A stretch of 64,000 nt of DNA, taken from Bolinopsis microptera. Taxonomy: Eukaryota; Ctenophora; Tentaculata; Lobata; Bolinopsidae. This document shows positions 25,488-63,434 of the stretch, piece by piece. Positions within the stretch are counted from its first letter, which is position 1; every line of letters starts with the position of its first letter. A program made the position numbers and the translations under genes. Where the stretch lies: positions 8,820,675 through 8,884,674 of the forward strand of contig NC_087078.1 in assembly GCF_026151205.1 (NCBI RefSeq). The letters are read 5' to 3'. The notes beneath the pieces were generated by a model that saw nothing but the letters and a program-made list of their open reading frames with translations, had not been told where the DNA came from and searched no databases.

Positions 25488-28400
25488 TCAGTTTTTCTCG
25501 TGAGATCGCTGATAGAAGACGAAGGAGACGGCTGTATCCCAGGCTGAGTGTAAAGCAAAGTCCTTTATTTTGTGTTTACTTGTAGTGTGATTCCACTGTG
25601 CCACCTGAAATGTACCGTTATTTGTAAGTTAAGTTAAAGCCCATATACCCTGAATATTGGCTTTAATCTTACTGGATATGGTATTATCCATTCACACAAG
25701 CCAGATTATTGTTAATTCCCATAATTCTTTTTTTCTGAAGTAAGTGAATAATAATTTAAAGAGCAGTACTACAATAAACACGTGATGCCAATATAAGGGT
25801 ATATGACTATCCGAGCAGTACTACAATAAACACGTGATGCCCATATAAGGGTATATGACTAACCGAGCAGGTGGTGTCAGCTTCCTCAGGAGGTGCTTTA
25901 GTCTGGATATTGTTAATACACCTCTTACATTGCAGTCTGGAGGGAATGGTATTAGAAACATAGAGAGAGTGATATAAAGAGGAATTGATACAAATTAAGA
26001 CGGAAAAGAACACATAGCTAGTAACTGCATTATACCACTACTGTGTGGCAATGATGAGCGAATAATCAATTGTGTTTTAACATTAACAATTTAGATAAAG
26101 GATGTTATCATTGATTCTATTGTTGAACTTTTGCGGAGATATTATAACAACTAACTTATCGTGAGTATCGCTGAGAGTATCTGTCTTGAGGTTGAACAGT
26201 TCCCTGAGTTCCGAGAGAGAAAAGTGTCGCTCAACATTCTCTTCACAGTCCACCACCGCACTGCTCAAACTCTGTAACACAAGGTCAGCATTCAACAGCG
26301 TGAATTTTCCCCGTTTTTATTTTGTAGTTGACAATTAACATTTATTTAGTTATTTGGTATTTTATTTAATTGTTCATGTAATCGGATGTGGTGTTCACGA
26401 AAAAAGTGTCTTAATTGAGTTTCGAGCTGAGATTGCCCTTCAGTTGCGCTATAAATCCAGGAACAACACTGATCGTTAAGCAACGATTAAAGTAACCAAA
26501 GTAATTAGTAACCATAGTAACGACCCTAACCTTCTTATGAGTCTGTCTCTGAAATATCTTCTCCTCGATAGTTCCCGTAGTCAGCAGTCTGTATATAAAT
26601 ACAGGTTTCTTCTGTCCGTCCCTCCAGACCCGTGCCATAGCCTGCTCATCATTGGCTGGGTTCCAGTCAGGGTCAAACATCACCAGTCTGTTAGCTCCTG
26701 TTAGTTATATAATTAGTCTAACATCACCAGTCTGTTAGCTCCTGTTAGTTATATAATTAGTCAAACATCACCAGTCTGTTAGCTCCTGTTAGTTATATAA
26801 TTAGTCAAACATCACCAGTCTGTTAGCTCCTGTTAGTTATATAATTAGTCAAACATCACCAGTCTGTTAGCTCCTGTTAGTTATATAATTAGTCAAACAT
26901 CACCAGTCTGTTAGCTCCTGTGTTTTGGTTAAAATCAGATTTATTCTACTTGCTGTTATCATATAACTGTAGATTAGGCAGTAGTAGGGTTTACTACTTA
27001 CAGAATTAAATTCTGGCTTGTTTAGTCCTTCACAGCGAAGGTGGTTCAATCAATTATTTATTAGGTTTATATTGTGTTTTGCCACAGTATGTAGAATTCT
27101 ATTCTATACCTATCAGGTCCAACCCACACGTAACCTAGTAACCTAGTAACCTAGTTACCTAGTAGCCTAGTAGCCTAGCAACCTAGTAACATAGTAACCT
27201 AGTTACCTAGTAACATAGTACATAGTAACCTAGTAACCTAGTAACCTAGTAACCTAGTAACCTAGTAACATAGTAACATAGTAACCTAGTAAACCAGTAA
27301 CCTAGTAGCCTAGTAACCATAATAACTTAGTAACCATACCTATTAGGTTGAGACCACACCCTCCTGCTTTGCTGCTCAACATGAACAGGAAGTCCTTACT
27401 GTCAGGGTCATTGAACTTGTCTACTATCTTCATACGCTTCTTAGCGGTCATTGAGCCGTCCAGACGTACAAACTGGTACCTGTAGGAGTGTGTAATATTA
27501 AGAGGTGGATGAAGTGTTATTGTAGATCTCACAATATTATAAATATATCAATAAAGTGTTATATAGCGTTGGAACAGAGTCAATATATTTAATGTTGCCA
27601 TAGGATGAAAAGTCCCCATTCATCGCAGCCCGCTAGTTTCACTGCCTTCTAATACTGAAGAGCCATAATATTAAACGTGTAGTGAGGGATAATTTAGTAA
27701 ACATAGTAGCGTACCCTCGGAGACGAGCCAGATGTTCGAACACGTCCAGAGTTTGGGTATAGTTGGAGACCAGGACAAACCTATCATCAGTCCGGGACTT
27801 GGTGGACGCTAAAATACAGTCCAGCACTGCCAGCTTACCTGAAATAAGGACGTTAAAATACAGTCCAGCACTGCCAGCTTACCTGAAATTAGGACGTTAC
27901 AATACAGTCCAGCACAGTTTTGAGTTGCTCCCGTTGTTTTACTCGCCGTACAGTCTCTCAATCCTCCAAAGACCAAGAGCCGCGGTAGTGATGTTATAAA
28001 ACAGTATAAACAATATAAACAACATGTCATGTTCACATCTCAGTAATACTGAACAAAAACTTAATGTCATTTGTCGCATAGTTGTTTGAGGTTGAATCTC
28101 TCAATATAAACAAGAAACTAAAACCGACAAATAATAGGACTGATATAGAAATAACTCATCGGTCTATTCACCTTCTCTCAATATATAAAATGATAAAATA
28201 TTAACGTTCTGTTCAACTTCAAAGGAGTGTTCCTCTATCACTGGAGACAGCAACAGTTGACTCCCACCAACAGGTGCCCCATTAACTGTTACTTCAAAGA
28301 CATTACAGAGGAACACAATGGGGAAGCTAGTCCAGAAACTGGGGTCACGTTGAAGAATGACAGAGTGAGTAAATAGAAACCACCTGCTTAGTGCTTACAA

Positions 28401-31400
28401 CAAACCACCCCGTACGATAAAGTAGACGTCTCTAAGTTAACATCCCCAAACAGTTACCTTTCATTTCTACTATATACTGCGATCAGTAATCTCTCATTTC
28501 GTCTATATAAATTGCAATCAGTAACCTCTCATTTCTACTATACTGCAATAATGTTGCCGCTCAGTTTGCTACTCGTACTACTACCACTAGTGTCAGGGGA
28601 TCTACAAGATCTACCAGTGTGGCCTAAACAGTTCAGATGGTCCTACTCTGGTGTCCCTGCTGGTTACAGCTGTGTTAAGATAACAGAACCCTCCGATCCG
28701 GATACCTGGGAGGACAACTACTTCTGCTGGGAGAAACACTGTGCCAACCCAGGTAGAGTCCAATACTGATTAACTACGGAGTTTGGGAGAAAGGAAACAG
28801 CTGTATTACCGAAATATTCACTTAATGATTTCCTGTCTTTCAACTTTATCTACCTTACCTTGGAAGTTCTTTTCGCCTGCTTTATTTTCTGTAATACTTC
28901 AAATAAACCCTTCATTTTGAATGAAATGTTCCCTGACTTTATCTGCCTTACCTTGGAAGTTCCTGTCAATTTCCTTAATTTTAACCCTTCATTTTACATC
29001 AGGTTTCCAGTGGAGCTACTCCGGGAAGATAAGCGGAATGCGCTGCACCCAAATAGTGGAACCCTCAGATCCCCACACGTGGGCGGACAACTACCTGTGT
29101 GTACCTAGCAACACTAACTATCACTTCACCTGGGCTCACAGTGGGGGTATGATGCAGAGTGGGAGCAGTTGTGTGCAGTGGCTGGAACCTAGTGATAAGC
29201 ATACTTGGGAGGATAACTACCTGTGTGGTAATACAGGGGCTGGACCGAGTTATGATGATATATCCGAGTAATGACGGGGCCTACTTAGTAACCATAGTAA
29301 CGACCCTAAAATTTACTGTCCTACTTAGTACTTATTAGACTTGCTAGTTTAACATTTAGGATTTTTGCTGGGAAATGGTTCATTCTTTCACTTGTTTCTC
29401 TGATCGATATTACGGTTATCTCATACGTTCATTGGGACAATAACGCAGTAACATTTTTGATTTTTAAATAAAATAATATCGAAATCTAATGAAAATGCAA
29501 AACTACATAAGTCTTTATCGATAGATTACGACCAACCTCAGTACAGTAGTGAACGTGAAGTCAGGTATAGTGGTCAGAAAATGATAAGAGAGAAATGAAC
29601 GATGAAAAATAAATACATCAACAAACAAACAAACATACAAACAGCAGCACAAACCAGATAGTATAGGTTGGAGTTTTCTGATGGTACAGTTTCCAAGGTG
29701 ATCCAGAGCATCTTCCCACCCGGGAGCCCGTTCTTCGGCCTTCTCTCTGATTAGCGCTGGGTCTGGGGTTTATAGTAGTTATAGTAGAGTCAAACTATGT
29801 GAAATAATTCATTGAGTAGTCGAAATAAAATCGGTTAGTAGGCTAAATCTAAATGAAGTGAATTGACTTGGTAAGAATGATAAACCAACTTTTCAAACTT
29901 AGGTGAAAAGTTATCAACATCTACATTCTCAACAATGGACCCAACAACTACTAGTACAAGTGCTAACTCACAGTGCTAAGTGCTAAGTGCTAAGTGCTAA
30001 GTGCTAAGTGCTAAGTGCTGAGTGCTAAGTGCTAAGTGCTAAGTGCTAAGTGCTTAGTGCTAAGTGCTAAGTACTAAGTGTTAAGTGCTAAGTGCTAAGT
30101 GCTGAGTGCTAAGTGATAAGTGCTAATTGCTGAGTGATAAGTACTAAGTGCTAAGTGCAAAGTGCAAAGTGCAAAGTGCAAAGTGCTAAGTGCTAAGTGC
30201 TAAGTACTAAGTGCTAAGTGCTAAGTGCTAAGTGCTAAGTGCTGAGTGCTAAGTGCTAAGTGCTAAGTGCTAAGTGCTAAGTACTGAGTGTTAAGTGCTA
30301 AGTGCTAAGTGCTAAGTGCTAAGTGCTAAGTGCTAATTGCTGAGTGATAAGTACTAAGTGCTAAGTGCAAAGTGCAAAGTGCAAAGTGCAAAGTGCAAAG
30401 TGCTAAGGGCTAAGTGCTAAGTGCTAAGTACTAAGTACTGAGTGTTAAGTGCTAAGTGCTAAGTGCTAAGTGCTAAGTGCTAATTGCTGAGTGATAAGTA
30501 CTAAGTGCTAAGTGCAAAGTGCAAAGTGCAAAGTGCTAAGTGCTAAGTGCTAACTCACAGTTACAAAGCTTCTTGAGATTAGTGATAGAAGAGAGAGCCC
30601 CAACTGCTGCCTTCTTGTTATCAGCCAGAGCTGCTCGAGTAGTTTTAGAGTTAACAAAGGATGTGTAGATAGCTGATTGTAGGGGAGAGGGCCGACAGCA
30701 TACTACTTGTTCTATTTTTATTGGGAGGTACTTTGATAGGATAGCTGCTGTTCTTCTGATGATACACCTGTGTGGATATATGATATTGTTGATATAGTAA
30801 ATTAAACATGAATATCTCTCTAACATTCTGTGAAAATTATGGTTTTTGTAAAACAGAAAATGGGCCTTCGTGCAGTATTACCTGGTTTCGTCAATTACTG
30901 GTACAAGGACGGTATCCCCCCAGCAAGTACTAAGTCTGGCTTTTATTTACATAAAATATTGACAGTACACAGTATCATTGTAAAGAACGCACTCATTTTA
31001 ATGCATAAATTGAAAAACTTTCCTAATCTAGTACCATTGTCTCTCAAGAAAACAATTCCCAAAAGCGCACCATTATTTAATACTAACACGGATTCTATCC
31101 TCACTACACAATGGTCAGAAAAGTATGGTCAACACCCCTACAACAACTCAGTATTTTTTAAAGGTCCATTATTAGCAATAAACCGATATAATGTTGCAGC
31201 AACTTCCCCGCCTAGTCTATTTAACCTGAACATTTACAAAACTTGTATAAAAACTATGCTCATCGATCAGCAAAATGAAAACATCGAAGACGAATGGCCT
31301 AATTTCATGTTATTTTGTATAACAGGACTAAGAAAATCAAAGCGTAACATAAACCAAAATGCCGATAATAACCTTGTCTCTACATCTTAGATTATATGCA

Positions 31401-34593: not shown

Positions 34594-36920
34594 TCAATCA
34601 AGATCATCAATTTTAACTTTACCCGTCATCATCCCATGAACAACATTCCACCAGGCTAGTGTCCCCAGGGAGGAACCCCCGTCCACAACTAGTGAGTGTC
34701 CGGTAATGTAGGGGGCAGTTAACATAAACACTACCGCTACTGCTACATCTTCTGGGGTTCCTAGCCGTCCTTGTGGTACCTGCAGAGTGGGGTTTAGTTA
34801 CCAGGCACGTTACCATGGCAACAGGGGGGTTAGCATGGCAACACGGGGGTTACCATGGTAACACGGGGGTTTACCATGGCAACACGGGGGTTTACAATGG
34901 TAACACGGGGTTAGCATGGTAACAGGGGGGTTAGCATGGTAATAGGGGGGTTAGCATGGTAACAGGGGGGTTAGCATGGTAACAGGGGGGTTAGCATGGT
35001 AACAGGGGGGTTAGCATGGTAACAGGGGGGTAAGCATGGTAACAGGGGGGTTACCATGGTAACACGGGGGGTTAGCGGATCATTGAACTCATTGATCACG
35101 TGACATGTCACACATTTTGCATGTAAGATAATTGTTCTCTGATAAGAAAACATCCAGATGTTACAATTTTCTATTTTTCACCTGTTTCATAGCCTCTTTA
35201 AACATCTTGGGACCGAAAGGACCGTAGTTCTGAACTGCGGTATCAGAGTATATAATCCCGGGTATCACATTATTTACACTGATCCCATACTCGCCTGATG
35301 AAATGGTGGGAAGAGTTTTTAAGTTTGAGGAGGAAACCAAGAAAATAAGAAATTTTACAGTTCCAGGGAAAAAAACGATGAAAATATCACACAGAAGACA
35401 GATCATCAGTTAAAACAGAAATTTCTAAATCTCCAAACCGCCTGACTAGCGACTACTACCACCCCAACTAACCCCATTCAACAGCAAGTGTTTTAGCTAG
35501 AGCCTCTACTCCAGCTCTTGCAGAAACACTATGAGCAAACCCCGGCCAGCCCCCGTGTAGTTCCATCAGGATGTTAACAATAGATCCTCCGTTCTCTTTC
35601 ATACACTGTTTAAATACGGACTGAGTGAGGAAGAAGGTACCCCGGAGGTTCGTGTTTACAACTGAAATTAAAATGAGTTAGCTCAAAATAATAACACCCT
35701 AGTAACACCCTAGTAACACCCTAGTAACACCCTAGTAACACCATAGTAACACCCTAGTAACACCCTAGTAATACGGACTGAGTGAGGAAGAAGGTACCCC
35801 GGAGGTTCGTGTTTACAACTGAAATTAAGAGGAGTTAGCTCAAAATAATAACACCCTAGTAACACCCTAGTAACACCATAGTAACACCCTAGCAACACCA
35901 TAGTAACACCCTAGTAACACCCTAGTAATACGGACTGGGTGAGGAAGAAGGTACCCCGGAGGTTCGTGTTTACAACTGAAATTAAGAGAGTAGCTCACAG
36001 TAAGTCACTCTCACAATAGATTTGTCTTACAGATGAACAAGGAAGGTAAACAACAAACATTTAATCAGTCAAGGTATCTAAAACCTATCGCGAGAATACA
36101 ACAATCACCAATATAAAACTGGATTCACACTAAGACAATAACGCTGTTTTCAGTTAAACCGAACACCATTCCCTCTCACCTGCATCCCAGCCGTTAGGAG
36201 AGATCATCTCAGCAGGCATTACAAACTGTCCTCCTCCGTTATTAACCAGATAGTCCACATTACCGTGAGATGTGATAAAGGAGTCTAACATTGCCTCTAT
36301 CTGCTCATTCTTCCTAATGTCACATTGGTATGGGATCACTCTTCCTTCACTCTCCTGTTGTGAGTGATAAAATGAGGTTTTCTATAGCTGATATTCAGAA
36401 ATGTCTGAGCTACTAACTATTTTTTGACATATAAACATATAATCATATAATCACATAATCACCAAATGATCAGTTACCATCGTTTAAATTAACTTTAACA
36501 ATCTGAACATATAAATTCTAAACAGGGAGTCAGGGTATTTAAACCTTCTTACCTTGTACTTCTCGTTAAATTCCTGTGCAGCTGTTTCTACTTTCTGAAG
36601 TGACCGGGAGGCTATAGCAACTTTACAGCCTTTCTGTACTAACAGTTCCGTGATACCTTTACCAATACCTGCAACAGAAAATATTATACAGTGCTTAAGA
36701 AATAATATGTTCAACTAAAACAGACGTTATTCATACTGAATAGTAGAAATAAAAGAAATTCTAAAATTAATTACAGCTGCAGAATCTAACAAAAGATAGA
36801 AATGAAGTGATAGAGTCAGAGAGATAAAACGTTAAATGTTATCAAATAAAAAATAACTTAATTACCTGTACCACCTCCAGTCACAATAGCAGTTTTACCA
36901 ACTAATGAAGAAAGTAACAT
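34594..36920 (-). CDS. PECR: Peroxisomal trans-2-enoyl-CoA reductase-like SDR
   Basis: Six exons: 36866-36920, about 36553-36668, 36180-36354, 35473-35661, 35182-35294 and 34594-34779. They sum to 834 nt, giving 277 aa. Short-chain dehydrogenase features are TGGGTGIGKG (NADPH loop), LVNNGGGQFVMPAEMIS, the GGSIVNILMELHGG strand, the SARAGVEALAKTLAVEW helix and VIPGIIYSDTAVQNYGPFG, closest to PECR (NNGGGQF and YS.TAV.NYG). PECR reduces trans-2-enoyl-CoA in fatty-acid elongation. The usual SARAG segment replaces the SDR YxxxK tyrosine, as it does in vertebrate PECR. The C-terminus DDLD lacks a PTS1 (human ends AKL), so peroxisomal targeting is doubtful. Confidence 0.93.
34800..35080. repeat. G-rich 'ggggttagcatggtaaca' tandem array in PECR intron 5
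   Basis: About fourteen 19-20 bp units with G5-G7 runs followed by tta(g/c)catggtaac. The G-runs at regular spacing could form G-quadruplexes on the plus strand. The array starts about 20 bases upstream of the last-exon acceptor. Confidence 0.9.
35662..35990. repeat. ~158-bp duplications of the PECR exon 4 acceptor and exon start (2 extra copies)
   Basis: The block ggactgagtgaggaagaagg...ttcgtgtttacaactgaaatt recurs at 35774-35828 and 35934-35985. On the minus strand it reads tttcag|TTGTAAACACGAACC and about 45 more exon bases. 'Taacaccctag' repeats separate the copies. The real exon starts at 35661. Confidence 0.92.
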
Positions 36921-37294: not shown

Positions 37295-38964
37295 TCAACT
37301 CCAGGCCTGGAGACGACCCCCATCTAGAGACCGTATCTCGTTAACAAGTAACACAGCTGCTGCTACATCGGCACTTTGTCTGGCCTTGTCTATTGTGTGT
37401 CCCCACTCTACCTCGCCCCACCTGACAGGGAGATGGTCGGAGTTACAATTGTGTGAAGAGGAGAGGGGGGAGAGGGGCATGATTGTTTTGTGATTGATAA
37501 AACTGACTGATTATGAAGTTAAATCAGCTGATGGAAAGTTGAAGAGATTTAAAAGTTGAACCAACTTAAGAAGTTAAATAACTCCACTTCAAAACAGTGA
37601 AATATAACTCACCGATCCATCTGATAATCGCTCTCCAGATAAGCACAAGCAATAGCCTCCTCAGCACTGAGTCCCCCGTCCAACATAGCCATAGAAATGA
37701 CCAGGCTCTTAAGAGAAGTAGTAGAGTGGTGGTAAGCAGGCAGGGTCCAGGGGTGTTGTTTAAGGAGGTGGGAGCGGATAGTGGAGATAGTCTGCTCAGG
37801 TTGTGGGGTCAGCATGATATCTGTTGTTAGCGCTAGGTGCACGTGGTAGTGCTCTGAGAACCAGTCTGTTAGGGGGTTCCATCTGGGGTAAAATAGTCTG
37901 TTAGGGGGTTCCATCTGGGGTAAAATAGTTTGTTAGGGGGTTCCATCTGGGGCAAAATAGTTTGTTAGGGGGTTCCATCTGGGGTAAAATAGTTTGTTAG
38001 GGGGTTCCATCTGGGGCAAAATAGTTTGTTAGGGGGTTCCATCTGGGGCAAAATAGTTTGTTAGGGGGTTCCATCTGGGGCAAAATAGTTTGTTAGAGGG
38101 TTCCATCTGGGGCAAAATAGTTTGTTAGGGGGTTGTATCTGGGGCAAAATAGTTTATTAGGGGGTTCCATCTGGGGTAAAATAGTTTGTTAGGGGGTTCC
38201 ATCTGGGGTAAAATAGTTTGTTAGGGGGTTCCATCTGGGGTAAAATAGTTTGTTAGGGGGTTCCATCTGGGGTAAAATAGTTTGTTAGGGGGTTCCATCT
38301 GGGGTAAAGGTTTACTTTAAGAGGCAATTGAACATTGAAGACAGATAATCATTGCACTAGTTTAGGATTGCACAGTTAATAGATCTCTTTTTAGTAATCT
38401 TATTCATTTTTAATGATTAACAGAAAAATACTATACAGTTTCCCGAATCTATCAGGAGAGTGATAATATAACTTGTATCTAAAAGAGTAATAGTACGTAT
38501 AATATATAAGTTGTCTCTAAAATAGTACTTATATTTAATTTGTATCTGATAGAGTACCTGCTCTTCTCCAGACTGTGAAGTTGCTGGTCCTCCTTAGGAC
38601 CAGCCCTGTAACATACTGTATCAGTTCTCAGGAACTCTGTCATGTGCTCCACTAAAGCCGCTCCTTCATGGGGCTTATCTGTTGCTTTAAAACATAGTGT
38701 TGTCAGGGGCATCAGGGCAAAGATAATGCTATCTCTTTGCAAGTCCCATTCAACTGCTACAGCGTTAGCTAGTGCCTCCGTGGGGAGGACTAACAGGTTC
38801 CTGAGGGGAGTTTTAACGTTGGACTTGTTGTCAAGGGTTACCTGGTAACCTGCATCTGTTGTTATGACATCCACTTCTTTGTAGAACTTGTTGTTGTCTT
38901 TGGAGAAGGTGGCAAGGGAGCGGAGGGAGGGAGAGCAGTTGCGGATTATTCTTGATAGTAGCAT
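37295..38964 (-). CDS. ATPAF2: ATP synthase F1 assembly factor 2 (ATP12)
   Basis: Three exons: 38558-38964, 37613-37882 and 37295-37421. They sum to 804 nt, giving 267 aa (human 289). The start at 38964 gives a basic, serine-rich mitochondrial presequence (MLLSRIIRNCSPSLRSLATF). Then come FYKEVDVITTDAGYQVTLDN, TPLRNLLVLPTEALANAVAV, EWDLQ, LTTLCF and LRTDTVCYRAG, characteristic of ATP12, and WGEVEWGH near the end. The protein is a matrix chaperone that binds F1 alpha subunit before assembly. The exon 2 acceptor is followed upstream by a 14-unit minisatellite copying the acceptor. Confidence 0.95.
37866..38308. repeat. 32-bp minisatellite copying the ATPAF2 exon 2 acceptor (14 units)
   Basis: The unit ggttccatctggggtaaaat plus agtttgttaggg is 32 bp. 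On the minus strand each unit reads attttaccccag|ATGGAACCCCCTAA, the exact acceptor and first exon bases. The first unit is the functional one (exon start 37882). Fourteen copies are present, one with gtatct instead of ccatct. Confidence 0.95.
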
Positions 38965-39477: not shown

Positions 39478-40683
39478 TTAAGTTTGTTTGATAACGTTTC
39501 CGTTTTTAGATGTTTCCATGTATATACCAATTACAGCTACCACACATAGGGCCAGGAAGGAGAATATCATGATTTTATCAATTTTATCTATTAGGTAAAA
39601 CAAGCTTCTAAACAATCCCTTGATAAGCAAAACTAAGTTCCTGAAAAATCTCTTAATAGCATCTTCACCAAGGGTTTCAAAGTTTCGTCTTTGAGCCTCT
39701 TTTGTAGCTTCACTTCCAGAAGATTTTAGTTTTTGGTGCACCAAAGCTGTCTCACGTGGCCCAGTAATAATAGTGTCCGGTGGAACAGGGGAGGTGGAGA
39801 CAGGTTTGTTTGACGTCTCAATCTTCCTGCGACGAGAACGTCCGTAGTAGTCAGTTAAGATGGACTGCTGTGCTGGAATGATATGTTCAGCCAACATGTC
39901 AAGGCATGTTTGCCTAATCTCCTTTTGGTGGTAGGGTTTTTCAATAACCGATCTCCAAGTTACGTCACTTGAACTTTCAGAGAGACAATCAAGATTGTAA
40001 TCCGAGTCTCTCAAACTACGGTGTCTTTCTTCATCTAATCCAAGAAAAACATCTAGCGAGGCAGCTCCATCTGCTGCAGCGTAAGTCTTCATTTCCTGGG
40101 AGAGCTGAAATATCTCCCAATCAACTTGTAATTCAGATTGCTTAACCAGGCGTCGATGCAGAATATCTTCAACCAACTGTTGAAGGCTTAACTTTGGCAT
40201 GAACCCACTGCGCTTAACTTTTAACTCAGGTTCAGAGAGAGCAGCTTCCTCCAAACAATATTCAAAGTATTGTAGTTGTTGGATTAGTAATGGGGAGAAG
40301 GATTCTTTGCCAACAGCAAGGCACCTCAGATCCAACCAGCTTTTAACAGATATTTGAAACTGACGACGGATTCTCACTACCACCTCCTCAATATCAACAC
40401 CAACCTTCACAACACCTTCATTCAGGAGAATGGAAGACAACTGATCAGGAAGCCAATATTCAGTTTCAAATCTGCGCACTTGGAACAGGATGACATGTTC
40501 TGCTGTTGCTATTTGGATCACGGCTACATCGTAGACACCTTTAGTCTCCCATTTACAATCTAGTCCTATCACAGAGTGCTCTCCATCGATGACGTACCAT
40601 TGTAGGGCTAGGTTAGCCTCTTTGTCGTTCCTGGGGATTATTATAGTCCGAGTCTCTTCAATGTGGTACTCCTCTAATGTCAT
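39478..40683 (-). CDS. EXD2/WRN-like 3'-5' exonuclease domain protein 1, predicted inactive, tail-anchored
   Basis: Single-exon frame of 401 aa. A DnaQ-like DEDDy domain spans about residues 10-250: VIGLDCKWETK (Exo I), VKVGVDIEEVVVRI (Exo II) and YAAADGAASLDVF (Exo III). The Exo I glutamate (D-x-E) is lysine and the Exo II aspartate is valine, so metal-dependent catalysis is unlikely. After a conserved KPYHQKEIRQTCLD / DYYGRSRRRK tail there is a hydrophobic segment IMIFSFLALCVVAVIGIYM near the C-terminus, suggesting a tail anchor. An acceptor (ctctttccag) lies 2 bases before the ATG. It is the first of five tandem paralogues. Confidence 0.85.
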   Translation of the reverse strand: MTLEEYHIEETRTIIIPRNDKEANLALQWYVIDGEHSVIGLDCKWETKGVYDVAVIQIATAEHVILFQVRRFETEYWLPDQLSSILLNEGVVKVGVDIEEVVVRIRRQFQISVKSWLDLRCLAVGKESFSPLLIQQLQYFEYCLEEAALSEPELKVKRSGFMPKLSLQQLVEDILHRRLVKQSELQVDWEIFQLSQEMKTYAAADGAASLDVFLGLDEERHRSLRDSDYNLDCLSESSSDVTWRSVIEKPYHQKEIRQTCLDMLAEHIIPAQQSILTDYYGRSRRRKIETSNKPVSTSPVPPDTIITGPRETALVHQKLKSSGSEATKEAQRRNFETLGEDAIKRFFRNLVLLIKGLFRSLFYLIDKIDKIMIFSFLALCVVAVIGIYMETSKNGNVIKQT

Positions 40684-40733
40684 TCCTGGAAAGAGGAGAT
40701 TTGTTCATCGTATTTTACTGAATTTGAATTTGA

Positions 40734-45151: not shown

Positions 45152-45829
45152 ACCTGAATTGTAAAATGTATATACAAAATGATAATTACTGTACAAGAAA
45201 AATATAGCTCCAAGATAGGATGCATAATTCATAAATATTTCGAGCACTTGGAAATATTTATGAATTAAAACTTATAGTTTCTTTGATGTACACTCGCCCG
45301 GTTAGACAACATATAAGCCAAAATAGGCAGAATAATTATATGAAAAACGTTAATGGATTTCATGTTTCAAACTTCTTATTACACGCAGTGCAGTCTAAAC
45401 TAAAATTTTACGAAAGTAAATTATAATTTGATACTTATATTCGTTTTTAATTTTACATCCAAGTAACACGCTACTTAGTTTGCTTGAATAATCAATAATC
45501 AATAATCAATAAAACTTAAACAGAAATACGTTTGATTAAACCCTTAAACTACTAAATCGAACTTAAACAACATTTACATCAATAGGCACTCGATAGCTGA
45601 ATAAAATGTGTAACAAACTTCCCAACATGAATGAAATTTACGTTATAATATAAAAATAACGGTATGAGGCAAAACCATTTAAAACTAACATTATAAACAT
45701 CAAATGAACAATTTCGATAAAAATGTAAACAAAATAAATAACTAAAGAAAACGTAATAACAAAAAACTTAAAAAAAAACAACTTAAAACTATTATTTTAT
45801 TTCTCGCAATTTCTTACATGATTACTCCA

Positions 45830-46880: not shown

Positions 46881-46899
46881 TCCTGAAAAGTATACAATA

Positions 46900-47810: not shown

Positions 47811-47814
47811 TGTT

Positions 47815-49369
47815 TTAAGTGTATGAATGAGGAGTGAAGCTAATCTCTGGTGGCATCTGAACTAGAAATTGAGGCTGAGGGAGTCCTGGCAATCCGAACT
47901 GGGGATGGAACATGACATTGTCTCGGTGGTATTGGCTCATAGGAACGCCTGGTGGTGGAGGTGGTAGTCCAAATGTAGGGTACGGTTGCTGGTAACTGTG
48001 GGGAACAAAGCTTACGTCTTGGTATAAATTTGGCTGCATAATCTCGGCTGGCCCTCTCAATTGTAAATGAGGGTCTGACGAACCAGGGTGAGAACCATTA
48101 GCTTCCTTGTGAAGGTGTGCATCATGTGAATCGATATAAATCGTTCTAGTCAGAGCAACGTTACGTGATCGGGCTGTGCTAAGTTTGTGAGACATTTTAA
48201 CCTTTTTGTGACAAGGAGGTCTGTAGTTTAGGTTAATTGTAACACTTGACGGTGGTTGTGGTAAATATCTGGGGGAATCTTGCTGGTAGTTGTGGGGAAC
48301 AAAGCTAACGTCTTGGAGGAACCCTGGCTGCATGGTCTTTGCGAGCTGTAAACGATGGTATGATGAACTTGGATGAGTACTATTAGCTTCCTTGTGAAGT
48401 TGTGAATCTTGTAAATAGTTCGGAATTTGGTTATTCAAAGCTTTTTCAAGTGGACTAGGTGAAACTGAAATGCGATCGTGAGATTTTTTGGACCTTTTAA
48501 CCTTTTTACTAGGATAACGTTTGTAGTGATCAGCTAAAATTGGTCTCCACTGACGCAGAACCTTATGGGAGATAATGTCAAGACATGATTGTCGGACATC
48601 TCCGTCAATATAAGGCATTTCAATGACCAATCTCCAAGTGAGATCGTTTGAAGGAACTGAAAGCCATCTGAGATTGTAATTGGTATTCACCAAAGTACAA
48701 TGTCTGGCTTCATCAAGCCCGAGGAATATGTCTAATGAAGCAGCAGCATCTGCTGCAGCATAAATCTTCATATCCTGGGATAGTTCAAATGCTTCCCAAT
48801 TACCTAACACTTGTATTTTAAATAGCTTAGGCAGGCTCCGATGCAAAATATCTGCAACCAACTTTTCAAGGCCTAACTTCGGCATGAAACTGCTTCGTCT
48901 ACCCTTAACAATTGAGTCGGTAAGAGGAGCATCATGTGACAATTTTAATTCGAAGTTTTGAAATTGTTGAACCAGAAATAACGAGAAAAAGTCTTTTCGA
49001 ACAGCAAGGCATCTCAAATCTAACCAGCCCCTAACAGGAATTTGAAACTGAAGTAGAATTCTTCTAACATCTTCCTCAATACCAACTCCAACCTTAGTAA
49101 TTCTTTCATCCAGAAGGATTGAAGATAACAGTTTGGGGAGCCTATGTTTGCTCTCAAACCTACATATTTGAAACAAGATTGATTGTTCTTCTGTAGCAAT
49201 TTGGATTAATGCTACAGGACAACTAGCAAATTTGCTCTTCCATTCACAGTCTAGTCCTAAATACAGGGGAGCCTTTGTCAATGATGCACTTTTTTACAGC
49301 TGAATTGGCTTCTATTACGTCTCTGGGAATTATTATGGCTCGATTTTCTTCAACGTCATAAAGATTCAT
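47815..49369 (-). CDS. EXD2/WRN-like exonuclease domain gene 4, N-terminal frame break, proline-rich tail
   Basis: The main frame 47815-49281 (488 aa) has intact LGLDCEWK, VGVGIEEDVRRI and YAAADAAASLDIF motifs. The expected N-terminus (ATG 49369: MNLYDVEENRAIIIPRD...) is in another frame and breaks near 49265, so the protein may start at the internal ATG 49281 or the gene may be damaged. Instead of the family's membrane anchor it has about 220 residues rich in Pro, Ser, His and Tyr, containing an internal duplication: LHKEAN(S/G)(T/S)HP..S and QDVSFVPH(N/S)YQQ each occur twice, plus EISFTPHSY at the end. The tail suggests a soluble protein with a low-complexity region. Confidence 0.8.
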
Positions 49370-49944
49370 CACTGAAAAGTTTTTAATAGTTTGACATAAG
49401 AGCATAAGTGCTCTGTGGATACAAAAAATAAATAATAATTATTATAATATTATATAATGATGTGTTCACTATTCATACCTGATACTTACGATTGATTTAA
49501 TTTTTGCATAAACATAATTTCCATACGGTCCTTGGCGTGTTTGTGCAATTTAAAAAGTGATGGTGGTCAGTTACAACTGGTCACAAAACCAAACATAAAT
49601 TATTGTACAGTCATTAATACTAAATTTGATCACAAGAAACAGTTCAACCTGTTAAAGTTTTTTGGGCAGATTTAAACACAATATAATCAACACCATCTTG
49701 ACATGATACGGTTAGCTGAATTCACATAATTAACAGTAATAAAGGGAAAACTCGACAAATGAAATCGCATACCACTTCAGAGTCCCCCCCCCCCCCTGCG
49801 ACCTTGCATAAGACCACAACACGGCTAAATTTCTATCAGGTTGTTGTTAGGACGTTTCCCTCCCAATTGTCACATCACATATTCATATTTTAGAGGGTTG
49901 ATCATAGTCTAAAACTACAAAATATACTTGATAAAAATAACACA

Positions 49945-50027
49945 AAGATAGTTTTTTATTTGAAAATTATATTATATTATTATATATAAATCAAGCGTTA
50001 CATTTCAGCCATGCAAAATTACAATGA
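49945..50027. repeat. ~80-bp repeat present in inverted orientation at 54705-54782
   Basis: The shared block 'ataaatcaagcgttacattt' + 'cagccatgcaa' and 'tatttgaaaatt' occurs here on plus and at 54705-54782 on minus. The pair flanks exonuclease gene 5 and ribokinase. Confidence 0.75.
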
Positions 50028-50181
50028 CATATTTCGATATACTAATTGATAAATGGGGCTGCAATATAAGTTGATTATTGTGTGGCCGGATGACAACTAA
50101 CTAAAAAAGAAAAATAAACTTGATTAAATATAATTTAATAATAAATTATTCGGCTGAACCAACACATAGTAAGAGCCACAT

Positions 50182-51345
50182 TCACGTTGGGGCCGTCTCC
50201 CAAATTTTAATGACAAACAAAAACAATAAATTAAAAAATAAAGTGGCGATTAAAAATTTTAAAATCTTTATAAAAGCCTCTTCAACTCGAACATGAAATT
50301 TTTTCCTGCGAGGAATCATATCGAGGACTTTCTCAAATTCATCGTCCATAATGTGATTAAAACGAACACTTGATACGACCCTTCTACCATTAAAATACTT
50401 ACCAAAGTATGCACTTAAATCAGCAACAGGGTTCCAAAAGCTGATTATGTCTAGGCAAAAGATTCGTATCCATTTATGATCATACTTGACTTCAACAGCA
50501 GAATTCCACTTTACATTCGGATTAAGGTCATGTTGGGGTAATAAATCCCCATACACTATAACAACTCCAGGTGGGAATACATTTTTAGAATGCCACTTGT
50601 CATCTAACATATTTAAAGCATGGAATACTTCAAGAGAAGTAGATGCATCGGCAGCAGCATATAACTTTTGATCTTCAGATAAATCTGTTAGCTCCCAATC
50701 TACGCTGAAACATCTCATAGAAGTTGTATCTAATTTCTTTCTTAAGCAATTTGAAGTTAGTGTTTCTAATCCTAATTTTGGCATAAAACTAGCACGTTTT
50801 TCATCGGTATTTCTTTCGATTCCATAAAATTCTTGAGACAGAAACTCTCCATAGAACATTTTAGTAACCAAAAGGCAGCGAAGATCCAACCATCCCCTAC
50901 AACATGTATATCTACCATCACCATGGCTGGTCATCTTGCTATTATAAAACTGACTGTCCAAGCGTCCTATATCCTTCTCAATATCAACTCCAACCTTGAC
51001 GATATATCTGTCAATTAAAACATCACACAATCTTTTTGGTAAAGTGTTAGCACACTCAAATAATGTAGTCTGGAGCAAGATAACACATTCATTGGTTGCA
51101 ATTTGTATCACCGCTACATCAAACACATCCTCTCGTTCACTATAACTGTCACAGTTAAACCGATAACCCTGGTAATAATTCCCGCGAGAATTCCATTCAC
51201 AGTCAAACCCGACCACAGTGACATTATCTTTCTGGATGTATTTCTTAACAGCATTGTTAGCTTCACGTTCATTAGCAGGTACAACAATAAGTCTTCTTTC
51301 TTCTACGTCATACTTTTTCTCCATCCTTTGGCATGTACTAGTCAT
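50182..51345 (-). CDS. EXD2/WRN-like 3'-5' exonuclease domain protein 5, tail-anchored
   Basis: 387 aa, a single open frame and the most diverged member of the array. Catalytic motifs are kept: VVGFDCEWN (Exo I), VGVDIEKDIGRL (Exo II) and YAAADASTSLEVF (Exo III). There is an insertion after Exo I (GNYYQGYRFNCDS..) and another with paired cysteines (GRYTCCRGW). The C-terminus is hydrophobic (FLIATLFFNLLFLFVIKIW) followed by ETAPT, a typical tail-anchor layout. No obvious acceptor sits directly upstream of the ATG, unlike genes 1-4. Confidence 0.88.
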   Translation of the reverse strand: MTSTCQRMEKKYDVEERRLIVVPANEREANNAVKKYIQKDNVTVVGFDCEWNSRGNYYQGYRFNCDSYSEREDVFDVAVIQIATNECVILLQTTLFECANTLPKRLCDVLIDRYIVKVGVDIEKDIGRLDSQFYNSKMTSHGDGRYTCCRGWLDLRCLLVTKMFYGEFLSQEFYGIERNTDEKRASFMPKLGLETLTSNCLRKKLDTTSMRCFSVDWELTDLSEDQKLYAAADASTSLEVFHALNMLDDKWHSKNVFPPGVVIVYGDLLPQHDLNPNVKWNSAVEVKYDHKWIRIFCLDIISFWNPVADLSAYFGKYFNGRRVVSSVRFNHIMDDEFEKVLDMIPRRKKFHVRVEEAFIKILKFLIATLFFNLLFLFVIKIWETAPT

Positions 51346-51349
51346 TAAT

Positions 51350-52010
51350 CATTGCATTGATCAAACATTGGAATACAAATTACATTTTATTGAAATCATA
51401 TCTAAAGTGTTCCTGTTGTTGAGATAACCTTGAGCCTTGCGATACCAGTGTCACACTGTCAAAACACGACACCAAACTCTCTTAAAACTCTTAAACGTGA
51501 TTGTAATGCAGTTACAATTTTCATATCGCAATTTCAATGCTTGATTAAATAAATGTCATGTGAATTTACTTATAGCTGATTCGATCACCGCTTATTATGT
51601 TATTATTATATTCACACATAATGGTATATATAATATATAATATCGGGAGAGAGTAATACTCAAACACATCAACATCACAAGCATTATCAATAAATCACAA
51701 TAAAACATGCTTTAAATAATAATAAGTAAAAACCCCTCACAGTTACAATAAAATTGCACCGTTAACAATACAATTCTGAAAATAGATGTATGCCTCTGCA
51801 GAACTTAATCGCAATTTAAAGAGCGATAGTATTTTAGTATGAATAAAACATATAAAAATAAAAATCTTCATGCATTGCAGAACTGTTAAGTAATCCAGTC
51901 ATAACTTGATTCAGCTATATAATATTCAATTGTATAGCCGCTGCTAAATCAAAATATCAAATTCATTCCCAAAATTATCGTAAATTGCTACCTATATTTC
52001 AAAGCTTGAA
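51350..52010. other. Intergenic AT-rich DNA
   Basis: Nothing recognisable; no ORF, RNA gene or tandem repeat that I can support. Confidence 0.5.
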
Positions 52011-52012
52011 TA

Positions 52013-53151
52013 ACTGTTGGTATGAAGTAGGATAAGCTTGAAGTACTGTTAGTATGAAGTAGGATAAGCTTGAAGCACTGTTAGTATGAAGTAGGATAAG
52101 CTTGAAGTACTGTTAGTATGAAGTAGGATGAGCTTGAAGTACTGTTAGTATGAAGTAGGATAAGCTTGAAGCACTGTTAGTATGAAGTAGGATAAGCTTG
52201 AAGCACTGTTAATATGAAGTAGGATAAGCTTCAAGCACTGTTAGTATGAAGTAGGATAAGCTTGAAGCACTGTTAATATGAAGTAGGATAAGCTTCAAGC
52301 ACTGTTAGTATGAAGTAGGATAAGCTTGAAGCACTGTTAGTATGAAGTAGGATAAGCTTGAAGTACTGTTAGTATGAAGTAGGATAAGCTTGAAGCACTG
52401 TTAGTATGAAGTAGGATAAGCTTGAAGCACTGTTAGTATGAAGTAGGATAAGCTTGAAGCACTGTTAGTATGAAGTAGGATAAGCTTGAAGCACTGTTAG
52501 TATGAAGTAGGATAAGCTTGAAGCACTGTTAGTATGAAGTAGGATAAGCTTGAAGCACTGTTAGTATGAAGTAGGATAAGCTTGAAGTACTGTTAGTATG
52601 AAGTAGGATAAGCTTGAAGCACTGTTAATATGAAGTAGGATAAGCTTCAAGCACTGTTAGTATGAAGTAGGATAAGCTTGAAGCACTGTTAGTATGAAGT
52701 AGGATAAGCTTGAAGTACTGTTAGTATGAAGTAGGATAAGCTTGAAGCACTGTTAGTATGAAGTAGGATAAGCTTGAAGTACTGTTAGTATGAAGTAGGA
52801 TAAGCTTGAAGCACTGTTAGTATGAAGTAGGATAAGCTTGAAGCACTGTTAGTATGAAGTAGGATAAGCTTGAAGCACTGTTAGTATGAAGTAGGATAAG
52901 CTTGAAGCACTGTTAGTATGAAGTAGGATAAGCTTGAAGCACTGTTAGTATGAAGTAGGATAAGCTTGAAGCACTGTTAGTATGAAGTAGGATAAGCTTG
53001 AAGCACTGTTAGTATGAAGTAGAATAAGCTTGAAGCACTGTTAGTATGAAGTAGGATAAGCTTGAAGCACTGTTAGTATGAAGTAGGATAAGCTTGAAGC
53101 ACTGTTAGTATGAAGTAGGATAAGCTTGAAGTTAGTATGAAGTAGGATAAG
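52013..53151. repeat. 32-bp minisatellite (~35 units) overlapping the ribokinase stop codon
   Basis: Unit: gaagtaggataagcttgaag plus cactgttagtat, 32 bp, each with a HindIII site. Variants (aataag, cttcaag, ttaatatg) recur in ordered blocks, indicating multi-unit duplications. Read on the minus strand, the first unit supplies the last codons of ribokinase (SYPTSY and TAA at 53132). Confidence 0.95.
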
Positions 53152-54052
53152 AACTCTGAGTACCTAGTTTAGTGACACTCTGAGAAGCAACACTACAAGC
53201 AACCTCAACCTTTCTTTGAAACGACCTTCCTTTCAACGACTCATCAGCCAACAGACAAGCAAGCGATCCGATAAATGCATCTCCAGCACCAGTGGTATCA
53301 ACAGCTTTAACCTTCGGACAGGGAACATGGACATTTTCACCAGAGCCGTCTTGATAAATCACACCATTGGCTCCAAGAGTTACCATTCCCATCTTGCAAC
53401 CTTTCTTTCTTAACAGACCCGCTGCATTAGAAGCCTCTTCCACTGAGTTAACAGATTCTAATCCAAGGAGCTTCTCTGCCTCAGATTCGTTAACACAGAA
53501 GATATCAACTAGCTTGTACAGTTCGTCAGGGAGGCTATCAGTTGCCGGAGCAGCGTTGTAGATTGTGGTAATGTCCTTGTTTAGACTCTTGATAAGCTTC
53601 AGAGCAGTCAAGTTGGTGGATAAAGGTATTTCCTGTTGGAACACCACAACTTTGCCGCTTGCCAGAAGACTCTTGGCTTGATTAACGGCCTCGTCATCAA
53701 GCTCGTTGTTTGCTCCTCCGACTATAACAATACAATTCTCAGCCTGATTGTCCACTGTAATGGTAGCCACACCAGAAGCTGCAGACTCCACCCTCCCAAC
53801 GTGGGTGATGTCTACTCCGACATTCTTCAAATTCTCTATGTAATTATCTCCGAATGTGTCTGTGCCCAACTTGGCTACAAGAGCCGTCTTTGCACCTAGT
53901 TTTGCAGCCATTACAGCTTGGTTGGCTCCTTTTCCGCCAAAACCCACCATGAACTTAGTTCCATGGACAGTTTCTCCGCCCTTTGGTAGAACTGGAACGT
54001 AACTGATCAGATCAGTCATACAAGATCCCACAACAACAACAGAGGCAGTCAT
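53132..54052 (-). CDS. RBKS: Ribokinase
   Basis: Single exon of 306 aa from ATG 54052. PfkB-family signatures: VVVGSCMTDLISYVPVLPKG at the N-terminus, VGFGGKGANQAVMAAKLGA (signature 1), CVNESEAEKLLGL and VDTTGAGDAFIGSLA (signature 2, catalytic Asp). It ends with GTQSSYP, conserved in animal ribokinases. It phosphorylates D-ribose to ribose-5-phosphate in the cytosol. The usual dozen or so residues after SSYP are missing; the frame enters the minisatellite and stops there. An acceptor-like ctgcag lies 13 bases before the ATG, so a 5' UTR intron is possible. Confidence 0.95.
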   Translation of the reverse strand: MTASVVVVGSCMTDLISYVPVLPKGGETVHGTKFMVGFGGKGANQAVMAAKLGAKTALVAKLGTDTFGDNYIENLKNVGVDITHVGRVESAASGVATITVDNQAENCIVIVGGANNELDDEAVNQAKSLLASGKVVVFQQEIPLSTNLTALKLIKSLNKDITTIYNAAPATDSLPDELYKLVDIFCVNESEAEKLLGLESVNSVEEASNAAGLLRKKGCKMGMVTLGANGVIYQDGSGENVHVPCPKVKAVDTTGAGDAFIGSLACLLADESLKGRSFQRKVEVACSVASQSVTKLGTQSSYPTSY

Positions 54053-54079
54053 TCTCAACTCTGGTCTGCAGAACACCTT

Positions 54080-56794: not shown

Positions 56795-58360
56795 CTAAAC
56801 ATTTAGCTTATCAGGTTTCACCTTGGTGGTTGTTGCACTAGCTGTATTCGGAGTGGAGGAATTGTCAGCAACAACAGCAGAAGATGAGGATCCCATAATA
56901 GCAACTCTGCCCTGACACAGAGGGCTAGTAACAGTGTCCGTCATGGTGGCAGTGCCACTGACGATATCAGTGAACGATTTAGGCTCCACAACTCTAGTTG
57001 GCTCTGAATAACTCGGCTGAGCCTCAGAATCTTCACCACAGCAGCAATCTGAGCAACCTTCCCGGAAAATATCACATTTGTACATCAGGAAACCGTAAAT
57101 TATAGGATTAGTAACGATAGAAAGGTAGAAGAATATGTACACAAGTGACTTTTCTTCAGAAGTGTCGTAGCGTAAGATACCATGGACTATCCCATACGGT
57201 AACCAGGTTACCAGAGCAGTAGTCACAACCAGCGCTCCAGAAAGACGCTTACCACGTGTCATGCGGGGTTCCTTAAAACACAGCGCGCTCCAGATACCAA
57301 CATGTATGAGTAGAGGCAAGATATTGAAGATGATCATGTTGAAGTAGTCCACCAAGTTCTCCCAGTTGAACATCTTCCCATCAGCCAGATGAATAGAACA
57401 CTTGTGGTAACTAGTGGTGTAGTGAGAGTTCAAGTACCCTCCCTCTATTCCTATGATGAGGAGGATTAGCTCAATCAGAGGAAGACACCACACAGCCGCT
57501 ATAATCCCTCTCATCTGCTTTTCAGAGGGGAGAAAGACGCATATGCAGGATATAGGTATGATAGCCAAGGTGTTGAGATCACTAAGGAGCCAGGAGGAGA
57601 TGACACTGAAGAAAGTGCATCTGACAGTGCCTGTACCTAGGGTAGTAGCCTCCCCGTAGATAACACTGGGCCAGATGAAGCCAGGTCCTCTGATAGTAGC
57701 AGCAGCTAGGGAGAGGAGGATGTCAACTACACTCATGTTGACTAGAACGGTCCTGAACCTCTTCCGGTGCTTCTCTCCTCGGTGGTTGTATTTGAGGAAG
57801 AAGAGGAGTGTACTGAGGTTGAGGACAAGTCCAGTGATACCTGGGAGGATATTGGTATTAAGAAGAGGAGTGTACTGAGGCTGAGGACTAGTCCAGTGAT
57901 ACCTGGGAGGATATTGGTATTAAGAAGAGGAGTGTACTGAGGTTGAGGACTAGTCCAGTGATAGTTGATACCTGGGAGGATATTGGTATTAAGAAGAGGA
58001 GTGTACTGAGGTTGAGGACTAGTCCAGTGATACCTGGGAGGATATTGGTATTAATAGTTGATCACTTACATTGATGTAAAGTTTATTTGAATTTTGAAAT
58101 AAAAACATGGTGTTCACGAAACATTGGTACGGCTTTAGTTAATTCACGAAGGAGCAACCAGGTCCCTTTTGCGCTTACAATTTTTTTCGTAAATCGGGAA
58201 AGATTTTGTTAAAACCCTAGTCCAGATTTCAAAACGTTGACATAGTTCTATAAATTTTGTATACTTTACTCTGGTGGTCGGAAATGGTCTTACCGAGGAA
58301 GATAACACACAGGCCTGTAACTAGAGCAAACTTTTCTGGATCTGTTGAATGCCATGTCAT
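56795..58360 (-). CDS. Class A (rhodopsin-like) GPCR 2, paralogue of GPCR 1
   Basis: Two exons, 58294-58360 and 56795-57840, give 370 aa; the same intron position and phase as GPCR 1. It shares MSVVDILLSLAAATIRGPGF, WLLSDLNTLAIIPISCICVF, the NPIIY motif and the CSDCCCG tail. DNA encoding TM7 and the proximal C-tail is about 97% identical to GPCR 1, while the loops around TM6-TM7 and TM1 are clearly diverged. The acceptor of exon 2 is tandemly copied three times upstream. Confidence 0.92.
57841..58060. repeat. 61-69 bp tandem copies of the GPCR 2 exon 2 acceptor (3 extra)
   Basis: Each unit on the minus strand reads atcctcccag|GTATCACTGG followed by the first ~45 exon bases (CTCAACCTCAGTACACTCCT) and then 'taataccaat'. 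One unit has an internal gttgat insertion. The true exon begins at 57840. Confidence 0.92.
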
Positions 58361-61883: not shown

Positions 61884-63434
61884 TCACATTTCACCGCATT
61901 GTTCAATAAGAACTGGGAATTTAGGTCTATTATTAGCAGCGGTTGGAACATTCTCGATCTTCCTCAAGACCAACATTCCATCACTGACTTTACCAAAAGC
62001 CACGTGCTTGTTGTCCAGGAAGTCACAGGGCTGGCAGGTGATGAAGAACTGGCATCCGTTAGTGTCTTTACCGCTGTTAGCCATCGACATTATACCGGGT
62101 CCTTTGTGCTGCAGGGAGGAATGGTAATCATCATAATGTTAATAGAATACCTTATACCCCCCCCCCCCCCCCCTTATAATCTGGGTTGGAATTTTCTTAT
62201 TTTTGTTAGGGTACTATCTTCTAATAAATAAGGTACTTAGCAAAATATAAGTAAGTATAATATATAAGTATGTATAATATAAGTAAGTATAATATAAGTA
62301 TGTATGTAAGTATAGGTACAGCAGAAAATCGAATCTTGATATCATCCAAGAAGCAAAGTTTGTTCCTAAACTATCTAAAAACACTACTAATATAATATAA
62401 GGTGTTTTTTATGGAGTTAAGACCTAGTTTAGTTTACAGTACACAAGGAGTGAGTAACAGTAAACATAGGTGTTACGGTAACCATGGTAATATAACCTAG
62501 CCTTAAAACTTAATCGGACAATTCTAAAGATTACTAAACAGCAGTTCTACCTTGACAGAGAAGTTCTCATCTTCAAAATGTTTGCCGTAAATACTCTGAC
62601 TTCCCGTACCGTCGTTATTCAAGAAATCTCCTCCTTGAACCATGAAATCCTTGATAACTCGGTGAAAATGACATCCTTTAAACCTGAAAATATTAAGTTT
62701 ATTACATTTTACCATTATAGTATGTAAATAATCTATAACATAAAATTGTCCTGAACGTTTTGGTTTCAGAGTTAAAATCATTTGGGGAAAGAAAATGGCT
62801 GCTTGACTACACTAAACTAACCCAGTAATGGCTGCTTGACTACACTAAACTAACCCAGTAATGGCTGCTTGACTACACTAAACTAACCCAGTAGATGGCT
62901 GCTTGAAGCTTGACTACACTAAACTAACCCAGTAATGGCTGCTTGAGTACACTAAACTAACCCAGTAATGGCTGCTTGACTACACTAAACTAACCCAGTA
63001 ATGGCTGCTTGACTACACTAAACTAACCCAGTAGATGGCTGCTTGAAGCTTGACTACACTAAACTAACCCAGTAGATGGCTGCTTGATTACACTAAACTA
63101 ACCCAGTAGATGGCTGCTTGATTACACTAAACTAACCCAGTAATGGCTGCTTGACTACACTAAACTAACCCAGTAATGGCTGCTTGACTACACTAAATTA
63201 ACCCAGTAATGGCTGCTTGAAGCTTGACTACACTAAACTAACCCAGTAGATGGCTGCTTGACTACACTAAACTAACCCAGTAGGCACACCGTCCCTCCTG
63301 AACTCCCCAGTACACAGCTGTCTAAAATTCTCTGCAGTTCTTGGCACGTGGTCCGAGAACAGCTCCATCTTTATACGTCCTGCAGGATGACCTCCAATAC
63401 TGATGTCGAAGAATACCACTGGGTTCACTGTCAT
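61884..63434 (-). CDS. PPIH: Peptidyl-prolyl cis-trans isomerase H (spliceosomal cyclophilin)
   Basis: Three exons, 63277-63434, 62551-62683 and 61884-62108, give 516 nt and 171 aa (human 177). [53 protein letters not shown] (catalytic Arg and Gln), [16 protein letters not shown] and [20 protein letters not shown] + QCGEM match PPIH specifically rather than PPIA. It isomerises prolyl bonds and associates with the U4/U6-U5 tri-snRNP proteins PRP3/PRP4. The ATG chosen lies 4 bases after an acceptor (gtttcacag|CAAG), so an upstream leader exon or spliced leader is likely. The exon 1 donor is embedded in a minisatellite. Confidence 0.95.
62785..63290. repeat. 33-bp minisatellite copying the PPIH exon 1 donor (~15 units)
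   Basis: Unit: gactacactaaactaaccca plus gtaatggctgctt, 33 bp. On the minus strand each unit contains ACTGG|gttagtttagtg, identical to the true donor at 63276. Some units carry a 'tagatgg' or duplicated 'gaagctt' variant. Using a decoy would extend the exon in phase but hits TAG after two codons. Confidence 0.93.

Follow-up and report, generated by a model that had tools for sequence, protein, structure and literature searches.

Minisatellite-like tandem duplications of 5' or 3' exon-intron boundaries, termed mirages, are described in amphioxus, where they occur in the Adh3 gene and the globin genes BflGb6 and BflGb9 (PMC3087553), with TnC and lancelet PGBD5 as further examples (PMC3902484). 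In the parts of these papers drawn on here, mirage units measure 10 to 160 bp, AG/GT is kept in many of the copies and both kinds of boundary are affected (PMC3087553); copy number differs between haplotypes (PMC3087553; PMC3902484), and reverse transcription-PCR suggested that the genes are spliced normally (PMC3087553). Here we analyze a stretch of 64,000 nucleotides from the ctenophore Bolinopsis microptera (contig NC_087078.1, positions 8,820,675 to 8,884,674 of the forward strand; hereafter the window), in which tandem arrays copy the splice junctions of RAD54 and five other genes. We consider it likely that these arrays are mirage-type minisatellites that arose by ordinary local tandem duplication and that they are tolerated as the exon-proximal site is used.

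Exon-edge arrays and their decoy sites

Using Tandem Repeats Finder (62 rows for the window) and a reading of the minus strand, we found a splice site inside the unit of a tandem array at 8 of the 47 modeled junctions, a fraction that is somewhat too high because the total leaves out the later EXOSC2 exons, a nested plus-strand gene and the genes at 14.8-15.6 kb and 23.3-24.1 kb. The genes concerned are RAD54 (three arrays), EXOSC2, PECR, ATPAF2, a G protein-coupled receptor (GPCR)-like gene and PPIH. Five of the arrays are of acceptors and three of donors, and each is directly seen to combine terminal bases of the exon (its last in donor arrays, its first in acceptor arrays) with the splice site and part of the intron. 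In the list below, a decoy is a copy of the authentic junction in which no more than 5 of 16 bases mismatch, and an intact decoy is one that retains GT or AG.

24577..24717, minus strand: EXOSC2 exon 1 donor array; 36-bp unit, 10 exonic bases in the array, 3 intact decoys
25761..25870, minus strand: RAD54 exon 17 donor array; 52-bp unit, 2 copies, 7 exonic bases, sole decoy without GT (GATAGT)
26672..26921, minus strand: RAD54 exon 15 acceptor array; 44-bp unit (26 exonic and 18 intronic bases), 5 decoys, every one predicted to lead to a stop
27804..27915, minus strand: RAD54 exon 13 acceptor array; 44-bp unit (35 exonic bases), one decoy
35613..35997, minus strand: PECR exon 4 acceptor array; 157-bp unit with an inner 11-bp repeat, 49 exonic bases, 2 intact decoys
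37863..38308, minus strand: ATPAF2 exon 2 acceptor array; 32-bp unit (20 exonic bases), 14 copies, 13 intact decoys
57798..58054, minus strand: GPCR-like exon 2 acceptor array; 62- to 69-bp unit, 43 exonic bases, 3 intact decoy acceptors
62794..63282, minus strand: PPIH exon 1 donor array; 33- to 40-bp unit, tactgg|GTTAGT, 6 exonic bases, 13 intact decoy donors

All eight junctions of the original prediction were located in the sequence, and the arrays are, as it held, copies of their own junctions, each unit carrying the coding end of its own exon. Some of its particulars need amendment. The span that it gave, 25760-63290, takes in seven of the arrays and misses that of EXOSC2 exon 1 (24577-24717); the RAD54 junctions that it assigned to exons 11, 13 and 15 were found and belong to exons 13, 15 and 17 of the present model; and its GPCR gene does have the exon 2 acceptor array under a name that is unverified, the protein having found no match in a Pfam search. 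Its description of the unit sequences as unrelated suits the PPIH unit, which had no match beyond its own locus in a DNA search of the genome, and fails for the EXOSC2 exon 1 and RAD54 exon 17 units (36 and 52 bp), which have CCTTATATGGGCATCACGTGTT in common, with a shared core that contains CACGTG; the middle 12 bases of CCTTATATGGGCATCACGTGTT are also present singly at 25019, 17161 and 2531.

Spliced models were built for RAD54 (12 exons), PECR (5), ATPAF2 (3), PPIH (3) and two GPCR-like genes (2 each), and a single reading frame is kept through five of the six, the exception being the GPCR-like gene other than the array-bearing one, whose exon 1 is uncertain. The RAD54 protein aligns with 1z3i ("similar to RAD54-like"; E value 5.9e-274) without gaps at the exon 13, 15 and 17 junctions, and the alignments of the PECR protein with 1yxm (peroxisomal trans 2-enoyl CoA reductase) and of the PPIH protein with 1mzw (cyclophilin H) are likewise ungapped at their array junctions. 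The match of ATPAF2 to PF07542 extends across the array junction, as does that of EXOSC2 exons 1-2 to PF14382, on which the identity of the latter gene rests. The authentic site could be placed at the protein level in five of the six array-bearing genes of the window (by alignment in RAD54, PPIH and PECR and by Pfam in ATPAF2 and EXOSC2); it is the copy that touches the exon, because only that copy gives the conserved protein. These protein alignments imply that the transcripts would be spliced normally.

Together with seven arrays from a sample of other genes (see below), 15 arrays were examined for decoys, selected for spanning a junction out of the arrays at 47 + 286 junctions. Their unit lengths vary by locus from about 21 to 157 bp, and they include 6 to 53 exonic bases. 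We found 154 decoys, of which 153 have GT or AG intact, with GATAGT of RAD54 exon 17 as the remaining one; the largest set at one junction comprises 51 intact decoys. By a scoring matrix derived from 116 introns of the sample, 90 of the 153 intact decoys match or exceed the authentic site. Site scores thus often fail to single out the authentic site, and position therefore probably decides. In exon definition, the site that yields the shortest exon is chosen, and such a choice would fit donor arrays and acceptor arrays alike. The original prediction had also claimed, for the units that it translated, that decoy use gives a frameshift or stop. This extends to all 153 intact decoys placed in frame, the predicted outcome being a stop in 144, a frameshift in 9 and an open in-frame extension in none. 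That last count is unsurprising per array, since by our own estimate about two open cases would be expected over the 15 arrays, and the finding on site strength carries more weight than that on stops and frameshifts.

Several of the arrays can be compared with paralogous counterparts. A block comprising the RAD54 3' end and the EXOSC2 5' end is present in four copies. Two of them lie in the window (16500-19400 and 24500-27050; the duplicated segments run from about 16.5 to 19.4 kb and from about 24.5 to 27.0 kb), and the other two are on the same contig at a distance of 0.55 Mb (C7:9392001-9432000, L001-L004), in a region that also holds RAD54, PECR and ATPAF2. Long matches between the paralogous blocks are approximately 85-99% identical, with small indels abundant in parts, and the distant block may be either the unpolished (possibly unpurged) other haplotype or a decaying paralog. 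Counting by motif, we directly observe that copy number is unequal between the two to four paralogous copies at five of the six loci compared: RAD54 exon 15 (6, 2 and 1, with a second, diverged copy visible in the last; the 2-copy counterpart lies in the paralogous fragment at 19301-19257), RAD54 exon 17 (2, 8, 2 and 8), RAD54 exon 13 (2 versus 1 acceptors), ATPAF2 (14 versus 5) and EXOSC2 (4, 4, 5 and 4). PECR is the equal locus (3 versus 3). The counterparts at the second block of the window are as follows.

16717..16860, minus strand: paralogous EXOSC2 exon 1 donor array, 4 copies
17939..18374, minus strand: paralogous RAD54 exon 17 donor array, 8 copies

Frequency at splice junctions and origin of the arrays

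For an estimate of frequency, the genome was searched with the P4-ATPase, myosin, kinesin and dynein families, and exon clusters were picked by match coordinates, blind to repeats. The searches gave 295 family matches (46, 73, 109 and 67, respectively), of which 252 entered the sample and 251 were placed in loci; the remainder, made up of matches that were scattered or confined to single exons and of a number of near-identical second copies, had been set aside before any repeats in them were examined. Profile position, frame and splice-site score together served to model 143 introns, 116 of them confidently; 42 neighboring exon pairs were dropped (37 because of gaps in the profile position, 4 for lack of fitting sites and 1 as too close). 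The resulting 286 junctions (kinesin, 104; dynein, 82; myosin, 72; P4-ATPase, 28) include 7 that are spanned by an array (2.4%; 95% interval, 1.0-5.0%). The process is therefore, as the original prediction held, a recurring one, directly observed elsewhere in the genome in five further cases in kinesin genes and two in dynein genes.

Kinesin L042: donor array, 38-bp unit, 2 copies
Kinesin L042: acceptor array, 21-bp unit, 24 copies
Kinesin L046: donor array, 53-bp unit, 2 copies
Kinesin L048: donor array, 33-bp unit, 52 copies
Kinesin L054: acceptor array, 49-bp unit, 26-29 copies
Dynein L060: donor array, 65-bp unit, 12 copies
Dynein L066 (L066:3870-3980): donor array, 55-bp duplication of the exon end, 2 copies

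An eighth candidate, donor 733 of a P4-ATPase gene (L032), was dropped, GTTAGT 34 bases upstream being the likelier donor; both counts were tested. At L066, GTATGT, the donor at the first copy, outscores GTTCAT at the second copy; of the two sites, GTTCAT is probably the older. Where acceptor arrays have short units, as in ATPAF2 (37863-38308) and L042, what by eye is the likely branch site for the authentic acceptor (CCCTAAC and GGTAAC) falls within exon-derived sequence of the copy before it. At loci L036, L025, L029, L054 and L023, arrays start either with the donor GT itself or a little way into the intron, and their units have donor-like (GTTAGT, GTGAGG) or branch-site-like (CTAAC) motifs.

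Under a null model in which units arise at any point of a gene, provided that a few or more bases of each fall in an intron, 4.5-5.3 spanning arrays are expected in the sample, where 7 are seen (P = 0.14-0.27). The result is similar for units of at least 15 bp (4.3-4.7 expected; P = 0.12-0.17) and for the confident introns alone (6 seen versus 4.0-4.8 expected; P = 0.20-0.35). The coverage by arrays with a period of at least 7 is 11.9% in the window and 12.2% in the first 189 kb of the sample, so the window is no richer in arrays than the sample. Within introns, array coverage is 10-22% at 50-200 bases inside and drops to about 3% at the junction. Since 72 of 116 donors follow AG and 42 of 116 acceptors precede GT, about 7.5 of the 15 array junctions are predicted from background to be of AG|GT form, and 6 are. 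These results do not bear out the part of the original prediction that had arrays seeded at AG|GT boundaries; the window, which was preselected for the feature, does exceed expectation.

Several observations nevertheless weigh against a purely random origin and would allow for splice sites that actively seed duplication, with junctions acquiring arrays at a higher rate than intronic DNA elsewhere; possible means are cotranscriptional R-loops, pausing and the repair of breaks at exon edges. For units of at least 20 bp, the sample without its doubtful case has 7 spanning arrays versus 3.5-3.9 expected (P = 0.04-0.06). The 8 of 47 junctions in the preselected window compare with 2.2-3.5 expected (P at most 0.004), and its rate differs from that of the sample (Fisher P = 0.0003). 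The sampled cases are confined to the kinesin and dynein genes (7 of 186 junctions), with none at the 100 myosin and P4-ATPase junctions (72 + 28; Fisher P = 0.10), and the rate may thus be uneven. Array ends within -3 to +20 of junctions number 15 versus 6.4 expected (P = 0.0025, in a bin set after the histogram was seen), and several of the arrays in that bin start at the donor GT or just after it. Genome-wide, the tripled donor word GGTAAGT (occurrences 20-50 bases apart) has 6114 matches versus 66, 1225, 2309, 2216 and 1704 for five rearranged control words, each search covering the reversed word too; this is 4.1 times the control mean and 2.6 times the highest control. The counts are, however, of matches and not of arrays, with long arrays weighing heavily, and real donors raise the base frequency of GGTAAGT in gene-rich sequence (128 versus 45.5, partly due to one array); in 338 kb of sequence, the mean for composition-matched words scales to about 2400 and that for all 7-letter words to about 1250. 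Arrays with donor words are thus frequent across the genome, and their excess, perhaps two- to fourfold, may stem from seeding, from the higher frequency of the word in genes or from both. TGAATGG, at first the sole control word, was misleading (66 matches; ratio near 93), and the four further words gave 1225-2309. Its arrays at C11:10705431-10708420 and C13:2435463-2436981 contain CTTACCTT, which on the opposite strand is the donor-like AAGGTAAG. Given the sampled frequency, the minimum of array coverage at the junction and in the exon and the missing AG|GT bias, we regard active seeding as possible but rather unlikely; the GGTAAGT excess and the pile-up of array ends may reflect a modest preference of arrays for splice sites. 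The same doubt attaches to a fuller proposal, namely, that splice junctions, and donors above all, are duplicated more than other intronic DNA, that a few per cent of them belong to arrays with as many as some fifty intact copies, among which the spliceosome must choose by position alone, and that such arrays supply material for shifting or gaining introns. If it is true that junctions are preferentially duplicated and sites chosen by position only, the arrays would be natural experiments on exon definition.

The core common to the EXOSC2 exon 1 and RAD54 exon 17 units might suggest a mobile or dispersed, introner-like repeat family that carries splice sites, as might the sequence that some GGTAAGT arrays share between places (C1:7503 and C1:914088, and C1:2199972 to 2249296, among the matches listed). 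Against this, each unit carries the coding end of its own exon, and in the DNA searches, which covered two junction units and a 7-bp array of RAD54 (see below), the PPIH unit was unique and the RAD54 exon 17 unit matched only the four copies of its own block; the 7-bp unit gave many matches, as expected for a short simple unit. A single element family, already rejected by the original prediction, is therefore highly improbable. That the decoys are retained for the regulation of splicing, e.g., via unproductive messages that are degraded, would accord with the stop or frameshift predicted for every intact decoy and with the sites being kept in nearly all copies. We nonetheless judge it improbable, since this outcome is not rare by chance over 15 arrays, recent homogenization accounts for the intact copies, and copy number varies between paralogs. 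The small indels of the distant C7 block, potentially an unpolished alternative haplotype, raise the question of erroneous arrays or copy numbers; an assembly artifact is scarcely credible, however, given arrays that recur in several copies and genes, copies that differ by substitutions and frames that are intact in five of the six modeled window genes.

We therefore favor ordinary local duplication, in which a short tandem duplication would by chance straddle an exon edge, so that the exon end and its splice site are copied into intronic sequence; the resulting array would thereafter grow, shrink and homogenize as any minisatellite does. The protein would be unaffected because the exon-touching copy still gives the original message, the remaining copies being intronic. 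The cell would splice at the exon-proximal site alone, most likely choosing it by position (the shortest exon), as most decoys are not weaker than the authentic site. Arrays would be born almost at random along genes, any preference for splice sites being modest at most. The further proposal that such duplications are a route to new introns finds no direct support, since in 13 of the 15 arrays the good sites within the copies are all of the same kind, the exceptions being RAD54 exon 13, whose acceptor CAG|GTAAGC scores as a strong donor too, and the L042 acceptor array. In their present state, the arrays lengthen introns; new introns are not indicated by the present evidence.

Other arrays and genes in the window

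Two short-unit arrays in RAD54 begin just inside a donor and end in a copy of it.

27130..27335, minus strand: 8-bp array starting 4 bases inside the RAD54 exon 14 donor (AATAG|GTATGG), with a diverged donor copy at the far end
29972..30553, minus strand: 7-bp array whose start lies 5 bases into a RAD54 donor (AACT|GTGAGTTAGCAC) and whose far end repeats that donor sequence

The plus-strand gene nested in a RAD54 intron (28553-29271) is small and, by eye, of secreted type, with a 33-bp array just 5' of its start codon. At 52002-53151 and 53132-54079, a 32-bp array of 36 copies (in the first span) includes the last codons and the stop codon of a single-exon gene, which we take to be sugar-kinase-like. 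Here the copied exon edge is of another kind than a splice site, namely, a gene end with its stop codon. A row of at least five long open reading frames, presumably exonuclease-like, occupies 39478-51348 on the minus strand.

Relation to mirages and other known systems

Introners are recurrent splice-site-bearing repeats that occur as dispersed insertions of one family. The ctenophore arrays differ from them in that each copies, locally, the exon edge of the gene in which it lies, and neither of the two junction units searched was the same sequence in many genes. Internal tandem repeats that alter human gene structure (PMC2812944) resemble the ctenophore arrays, by description, in being tandem repeats that affect gene structure, as far as the part of that account drawn on here goes. 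In the Rogers model, as outlined in PMC3087553, a new intron arises from a duplicated AGGT by tandem genomic duplication, a mode of intron gain that is also the subject of PMC4974935 and PMC3443670 in the parts drawn on here. The arrays share with this model a tandem duplication that includes splice-like sites, whereas the copied sequence is an existing boundary, and copies in 13 of 15 arrays are without the second kind of site. Models of intron gain assume a duplication step, for which the arrays provide a rate that can be measured.

The closest likeness is to the mirages of amphioxus as described in the parts of those papers drawn on here: arrays that span boundaries, units of about 21-157 bp, AG/GT kept in 153 of 154 copies, donors and acceptors both affected, and an unstable copy number, which in amphioxus differs between haplotypes and here between paralogous copies. 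In the papers found, mirages are known from a small number of amphioxus genes. Searches limited to open-license papers found neither a report of splice-site-copying repeats in ctenophores nor the term mirage for such repeats outside cephalochordates. The present arrays differ in their ctenophore host, in having up to 51 intact decoys at a junction and in their sampled rate of 7 in 286; splicing, examined by reverse transcription-PCR in amphioxus, is here predicted from genome sequence. The occurrence of mirages in another phylum, at junctions sampled blind to repeats, suggests that they are no peculiarity of lancelets, and donors or acceptors that stand in arrays, nearly identical and equally strong, would offer a direct test of site choice when sequence cannot decide. 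The arrays are thus of a known kind, the mirage, and what they add to it is a new host, a first estimate of its rate and the strength of its decoys.

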